Positions 1-38,863 of a stretch of DNA of 64,000 bases are shown here, in pieces. The position numbers and the translations under genes were made by a program. The DNA is from Hyphomonadaceae bacterium (GTDB lineage Bacteria; Pseudomonadota; Alphaproteobacteria; Caulobacterales; Aquidulcibacteraceae), in contig JALHQO010000011.1 in the NCBI GenBank assembly GCA_022841905.1, positions 1-64,000 on the forward strand, in the 5' to 3' direction. The stretch's first letter is position 1. Each line of letters opens with the position of its first letter. The notes beneath the pieces are model-generated. The model was not told the origin of the DNA and ran no database searches. It saw only the letters and a program-made list of their open reading frames with translations.

Positions 1-373
<373 letters not shown>

Positions 374-38644: not shown

Positions 38645-38673
38645 TTTTCAGATCGCGCGACGCACCCTATCTT
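38645..38673 (+). promoter_or_regulatory. Putative promoter of the small ORF unit
   Basis: TTTTCA, 17-nt spacer, TATCTT. Confidence 0.35.
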
Positions 38674-38710
38674 CGCCTCATCCCGGCGACTGGCGCCGGC
38701 TTTTTGTAGA

Positions 38711-38724
38711 AAAGGAGGTGATCC
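38711..38724 (+). promoter_or_regulatory. Extended Shine-Dalgarno AAAGGAGGTGATCC, exact complement of the 16S 3' tail (GGATCACCTCCTTT)
   Basis: Read directly; immediately precedes an ATG. Confidence 0.8.
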
Positions 38725-38796
38725 ATGTCTCATTGTCACTCGTTCGGGGCACTGTCACAGGCTTGGACCATCTCGAGCGCCAGCTCTGGGGTCTAA
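38725..38796 (+). CDS. 23-aa small ORF MSHCHSFGALSQAWTISSASSGV
   Basis: ATG directly after the extended SD; followed by a terminator hairpin at 38830-38863. Confidence 0.5.
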   Translation: MSHCHSFGALSQAWTISSASSGV

Positions 38797-38829
38797 CCTG
38801 AGATTCCCCGCTAACGCGGACTGACAATG

Positions 38830-38863
38830 GAAGGGCCGTGTCGGGAAACCGATGCGGCCCTTC
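38830..38863 (+). terminator. Intrinsic terminator-like hairpin
   Basis: GAAGGGCCG...CGGCCCTTC. Confidence 0.6.

Follow-up and report, generated by a model that had tools for sequence, protein, structure and literature searches.

A CC2171-family RNA in a Hyphomonadaceae genome, with a short reading frame that appears to be selected for translation

The window analysed here, 64,000 nt of a Hyphomonadaceae genome (contig JALHQO010000011.1), holds a compact intergenic unit in which a complete complement of the 3' tail of 16S rRNA stands directly before a reading frame of only 23 codons. What so extreme a Shine-Dalgarno (SD) sequence might serve at such a short open reading frame (ORF) is the question that this locus raises. 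An earlier note on the same DNA had offered a ribosome-binding regulatory RNA, a leader peptide or a highly translated small protein as answers. Direct reading placed every element that it had named where it had put them, and these are listed below together with the long-range helix P1.

38645-38650 and 38668-38673 (+): putative promoter TTTTCA / TATCTT, 17 nt spacing, read directly
38683..38706 (+): 5' hairpin, CCGGCG (38683-38688), ACTGG, CGCCGG (38694-38699), then CTTTTTG, read directly
38711-38724 (+): maximal SD AAAGGAGGTGATCC, complement of the 16S 3' tail
38725..38796 (+): 23-codon ORF MSHCHSFGALSQAWTISSASSGV, ATG at 38725-38727, stop TAA; frame conserved, peptide not conserved
38728..38737 (+): 5' strand of P1, codons 2-5, TCTCATTGTC, pairing with 38823-38831
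38823..38831 (+): 3' strand of P1, GACAATGGA, adjoining the terminator stem; placed by own-pair energies and the RF01867 match
38830..38863 (+): terminator-type hairpin, GAAGGGCCG (38830-38838) and CGGCCCTTC (38855-38863), with a weak T tail in the window copy

Identity of the unit and its conserved parts

Positions 38702..38860 (+) matched the whole model (1-159) of Rfam family RF01867, the CC2171 RNA, which Rfam types as an sRNA gene, with 67.1 bits and an E-value of 7.6e-14. This was the single RF01867 match in the source genome; no other Rfam family matched at the unit, nor did the unit have a hit in PLSDB of the kind expected of a plasmid-borne element. The score lies 8 bits below the gathering score of 75 bits, and since same-genus relatives likewise score only about 30 to 73 bits, the shortfall reflects the reach of the model and not a lack of homology. 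The locus is thus an unannotated new member of a known RNA family, sub-threshold but clear, which shares with the Rfam CC2171 RNA the SD block, the start region, a P1-like pairing (GACAAUG) and the terminator, and differs from it in falling below the gathering cut-off. Copies in Rhodobacterales, Sphingomonadales and Rhizobiaceae score far below that cut-off, with E-values of 2e-6 to 5e-3 for those of Sphingomonadales, Rhizobiaceae and Rhodobacteraceae. Among 15 distant alphaproteobacteria, the site of the SD motif was the top RF01867 hit in 14 and the second hit in the remaining one, a two-copy genome, and therefore types that differ by their peptide constitute one family. Literature searches with the motif, the peptides and the name CC2171 returned a predicted homolog listed in Mesorhizobium huakuii (PMC5596092) and the adjustment of the CC2171 structure in Rfam 15 (PMC11701678); the open-access literature, which does not include the original Caulobacter report, yielded no text on an ORF or a function of this RNA.

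The claim of a 14-nt complement abutting the ATG was borne out. AAAGGAGGTGATCC has no second match at up to one mismatch in the 3.56 Mb genome, in whose assembly the 3' ends of the rRNAs are absent or masked, and it is the sole match in the window, where 0.19 would be expected at up to two mismatches. The 16S tail, CTGGATCACCTCCTTTCTAAGGA, was read directly in two other alphaproteobacteria; several assemblies, the source assembly among them, lack the rRNA genes or have them masked. Window positions 1-370 (-) hold the 5' portion of a 16S gene, and the 3' end of that gene is absent from the assembly because the contig starts inside the rRNA operon. The calculated energy of the SD:anti-SD duplex is -24 kcal/mol vs -8.7 for GGAGG. 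In 208 of 222 loci the base at -1 is a G, which pairs with the C that comes directly after UUU in 16S rRNA, and position -2 is unmatched. A 16S gene fragment or primer-like artefact was considered and rejected, since the match lies antisense to the tail in an intergenic region and is flanked by conserved structure that is not rRNA, and since the site recurs in more than 200 loci. Extended SD pairing that reaches up to the start codon supports initiation in Staphylococcus aureus (PMC13009471), where it resembles the present case in its start-proximal pairing with the start codon just after; mRNAs of that species show it generally, whereas in the present case it is confined to one RNA and found once per genome.

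Across the family the parts follow one order, namely leader, SD, a spacer of 0-1 nt, ATG or GTG, ORF, 3' strand of P1 and terminator, and the predicted fold of the unit is much more stable than its shuffles (z -5.7). The SD, the start codon and the hairpins are conserved across the class, so that the lack of conservation of SD, ORF or hairpins that would have refuted the earlier note was not observed. Alignments of both the genus and the order show clear covariation in the terminator hairpin. The leader is often CAAC-rich; in the source genus it bears the 5' hairpin, whose CCGGCG/CGCCGG-type stem was found in the genus members listed and has a compensatory variant, CCAGCG/CGCTGG, in one of them (L063), and other genera showed no such hairpin before the SD. 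The proposed promoter fared less evenly: the TTTTCA/TATCTT pair is present and a TATCTT-like element recurs at the matching upstream place in most genus members, but the pair scores below the threshold of the consensus scan.

Distribution and neighbouring genes

Within the order, RF01867 matches were found in 166 of 298 genomes, mostly one each; several genomes had two to four model hits. An exact pattern (SD14, 0-2 nt, RTGTC) occurred in 53 of 386 alphaproteobacterial genomes, once in each, and a reversed-pattern control gave 0 hits. When one mismatch was tolerated and the spacer set to 1 nt, the pattern was found in 73 of 136 alphaproteobacteria vs 0 of 263 other Pseudomonadota, these class totals having been tallied by hand from the table, with one control hit in one genome. 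The matches include Sphingomonas, Novosphingobium, Ruegeria, Defluviimonas, Mesorhizobium, Bradyrhizobium and Methylobacterium, as well as Bosea, Ancylobacter, Azospirillum, Inquilinus, Roseococcus, Brevundimonas and Hyphomonas, and only a handful of metagenome bins are labelled as something other than alphaproteobacteria (e.g., L135, L186, L219 and L222). The RNA is usually present in one copy per genome and is effectively restricted to Alphaproteobacteria. One alphaproteobacterial genome holds two diverged copies (G309:C1:805104 and 2921849).

A leader peptide or attenuator would act in cis on a downstream gene, for example arfB in Rhodobacterales, and the arrangement of a short ORF followed by a terminator is of the expected kind, as is the same-strand gene for an RF-1-domain (ArfB-like) protein that lies just downstream in some Rhodobacterales. 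In the window, however, the next gene (DUF3008) is convergent, and over all loci the downstream gene lies on the same strand in 95 and on the opposite strand in 119 (~45% co-directional) and differs between orders. A co-transcribed downstream target was rejected on these grounds, the leader-peptide proposal of the earlier note did not hold up, and we consider a cis-acting role extremely improbable. The remaining neighbours vary too: a divergent LprI gene lies upstream in the window; the Caulobacter flank is a patatin gene, and a patatin gene also lies 2.3 kb upstream of the unit in the window; the Rhodobacterales flanks are a Vut_1 transporter gene and the RF-1-domain protein gene; and some Sphingomonadales have a branched-chain aminotransferase-like protein, named by sequence only. 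Given flanking genes that differ between orders and a mixed downstream orientation, the RNA is autonomous. In three Rhodobacterales loci (L141, L166 and L193) the RNA lies just upstream of the same-strand RF-1-domain gene and often downstream of the Vut_1 transporter gene, and a link to ribosome rescue is conceivable for this clade only.

The reading frame and its peptide

In 88 of 91 Rfam-derived loci, a start codon 0-1 nt from the SD was found together with an SD within two mismatches of the full complement, and the remaining three have altered SDs and keep a GTG start. All Rhodobacterales examined and nearly all Sphingomonadales have an ORF of 18 codons; elsewhere it runs to about 20-26 codons, with lengths in the two remaining clades centred on 22 and 26. 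The standard deviation of ORF length is 0-5 codons in frame 0 vs 14-40 in the other frames (+1 and +2), where lengths scatter, and all three stop codons (TAA, TAG and TGA) are used to end it. A mid-ORF TGG motif is in frame in 64 of 71 ORFs across indels, with offsets stepping by three, and a GCARYCT motif keeps to one frame in 30 of 34, also across indels, while the offset of the terminator, taken as the control, is spread over all three frames. Judged by these comparisons, the reading frame is under selection for translation.

The peptide behaves differently. Among codons with a single change in the short ORFs of 57 disjoint close pairs, 64 changes were synonymous and 155 nonsynonymous, against 64.5 synonymous changes expected, so that the synonymous-biased conservation for which the earlier note had suggested a check was absent; the neighbouring genes of the same genome pairs are under strong constraint (3507 synonymous changes vs 1330 expected). 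The peptide is thus under no detectable purifying selection and appears to evolve neutrally. The proposal of a highly translated small protein survives in part, in that frame, start and stop appear to be selected, and fails for the amino-acid sequence. A gene for a functional micropeptide of 18-26 amino acids with a high translation rate would account for the conserved start, stop, frame and maximal SD and for the order-specific N-terminal motifs (e.g., MSHCH, VSRVILERGVGT and MSHGSA), but these motifs coincide with P1 and are conserved at the nucleotide level, the C-terminal halves vary freely, and the neutral substitution pattern stands beside strongly constrained neighbours; we regard this explanation as unlikely.

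Dual-function RNAs such as rnTrpL/peTrpL of Sinorhizobium and Spot 42, cited in the same report, have a peptide that is reported to be functional (PMC10117765). The likeness consists in a small RNA that ends at a terminator of its own and bears a very short ORF, which is translated there and predicted in CC2171. As to what defines a dual-function RNA, an ORF apparently selected for translation was found here, but not a functional peptide, the CC2171-family peptide being neutral in its synonymous and nonsynonymous changes. In addition, rnTrpL is a leaderless attenuator RNA, whereas the window RNA has a maximal SD and no target in cis.

Two loci, L096 and L205 (the latter from Azospirillum), have a longer, signal-peptide-like ORF of 56-59 amino acids (MSHGA...ALLTAGIANA) at this position behind the SD and seem to depart from the pattern of a short, neutral ORF. 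In the MSSx type (L071-L091, L125, L128 and similar loci), the later part of the ORF has a conserved mini-hairpin of the GGAGCAGCCTCC type, which mostly keeps to one reading frame and in a few cases lies out of it.

Helix P1 and engagement of the ribosome

Codons 2-6 can pair with a segment that adjoins the terminator stem or overlaps it slightly. The resulting duplex, P1, was stronger with its own partner than with swapped or shuffled partners in four main clades, the energies of own vs swapped duplexes between clades being -16.7 vs -8.9 for the SHxx clade and -16.3 vs -10.4, -12.4 vs -7.8 and -12.2 vs -9.2 for the others. Several types of Watson-Crick pairs occupy the P1 positions, with compensatory changes between clades: CAUUGUC:GACAAUG in the window copy, CAUGGUUCAGC:GCUGACCAUG in Sphingomonadales, AGUGAG:CUCAC in hyphomonads and UCGAGAAAG:CUUUCGA in some Rhodobacterales. 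RNAalifold recovered P1 from the alignment in Sphingomonadales only and not from alignments A1, A2 and A4. In the predicted fold of the window copy, opening the ribosome footprint with the SD already free would cost ~7 kcal/mol (-88.5 to -81.1); set against the -24 kcal/mol of the SD duplex, a long SD can pay for opening P1, and a short one barely could. In most clades the initiation region is no harder to open than in shuffles, and two clades have an SD more open than that of their shuffles; both results speak against a strong block of the ribosome by P1. Pairing between the 5' and 3' parts of an RNA can gate the translation of a short ORF in type I toxin mRNAs such as hok. The CC2171 unit is similar in its long-range pairing and in the short ORF that this could gate, but differs in that neither an antitoxin nor a hydrophobic toxin-like peptide was found with it and its peptide sequence is unconstrained.

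A possible conformational switch was also weighed, in which an internal mimic of the 16S tail sequesters the SD and makes the RNA responsive to 30S subunits. TGGACCACCTC is near-invariant in the source genus, CC[AG][CT]CTCC is conserved in Rhodobacterales, and the SD and start are more paired than in shuffles in that order; against this, pairing of the SD with the body of the RNA is just ~1 sd better than in shuffles across clades, and for two of the four clades the SD came out more open than in the shuffles. A general switch of this kind was rejected as weak outside Rhodobacterales; it is plausible only there and, as a conserved motif, in the source genus, and as an account of the family it seems to us very improbable. 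The same openness of the SD in two clades would suit a base-pairing sRNA whose SD-like part is antisense to the 16S 3' end, serving in ribosome titration or in 16S 3'-end processing or quality control, with translation incidental. The 14-nt complement and the conserved G at -1 that matches the C after UUU favour such a reading, position -2 being unmatched, but it leaves unexplained why the start codon, the frame, the length of the ORF and its stop codons are conserved, and we doubt it.

The reading that we prefer, with a probability of roughly 60%, is that of an autonomous RF01867 sRNA gene that acts as a tiny mRNA, in which translation and the competition between P1 and the ribosome matter and the peptide is a by-product. 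Because SD, start, frame and stop are kept but the amino acids are not, we infer that the act of translation, and not its product, is what counts. A 30S subunit would dock on the uninterrupted SD:anti-SD duplex of 14-16 nt and initiate at the start codon 0-1 nt past the SD, for which it would have to open P1, the helix between codons 2-6 and the segment directly 5' of the terminator. The finished RNA would then alternate between a P1-closed state, with the ORF inside a closed loop, and a ribosome-engaged state; engagement would be the functional event, setting the fold, the lifetime or a trans-activity of the RNA, which would thereby respond to free ribosomes. Transcription of the window copy, its actual translation, the competition of P1 with the ribosome and any downstream effect are all presumed in this scheme. 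Of the answers first offered, a ribosome-engaging RNA gene is the one that agrees with RF01867 membership and with the class-wide conservation described above. Counting against it is the rule-level statement of Schrader et al. that intergenic ncRNAs of Caulobacter are in general not translated (PMC4117421).

More tentatively, and with less confidence than doubt, the preferred reading may be extended to a class-wide RNA made for ribosome binding and translation that senses or titrates free 30S subunits that have matured correctly; the signal would then be ribosome engagement and neither a ligand nor the peptide. New in this analysis is that the family spans the whole class and carries a frame seemingly selected for translation and not for product, such that a conserved "non-coding" RNA of an entire bacterial class would be under selection for being translated without selection on what is made. 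If true, this would account for an sRNA bearing the strongest SD in the genome and would let ribosome availability be read out directly or modulated in the Caulobacter, Rhodobacter, Bradyrhizobium and Sphingomonas models. A separate observation concerns the source genus, in which the genus-specific 5' hairpin and its T run (38683-38706) resemble a short intrinsic terminator placed between the promoter and the SD, and early attenuation at this site is possible.
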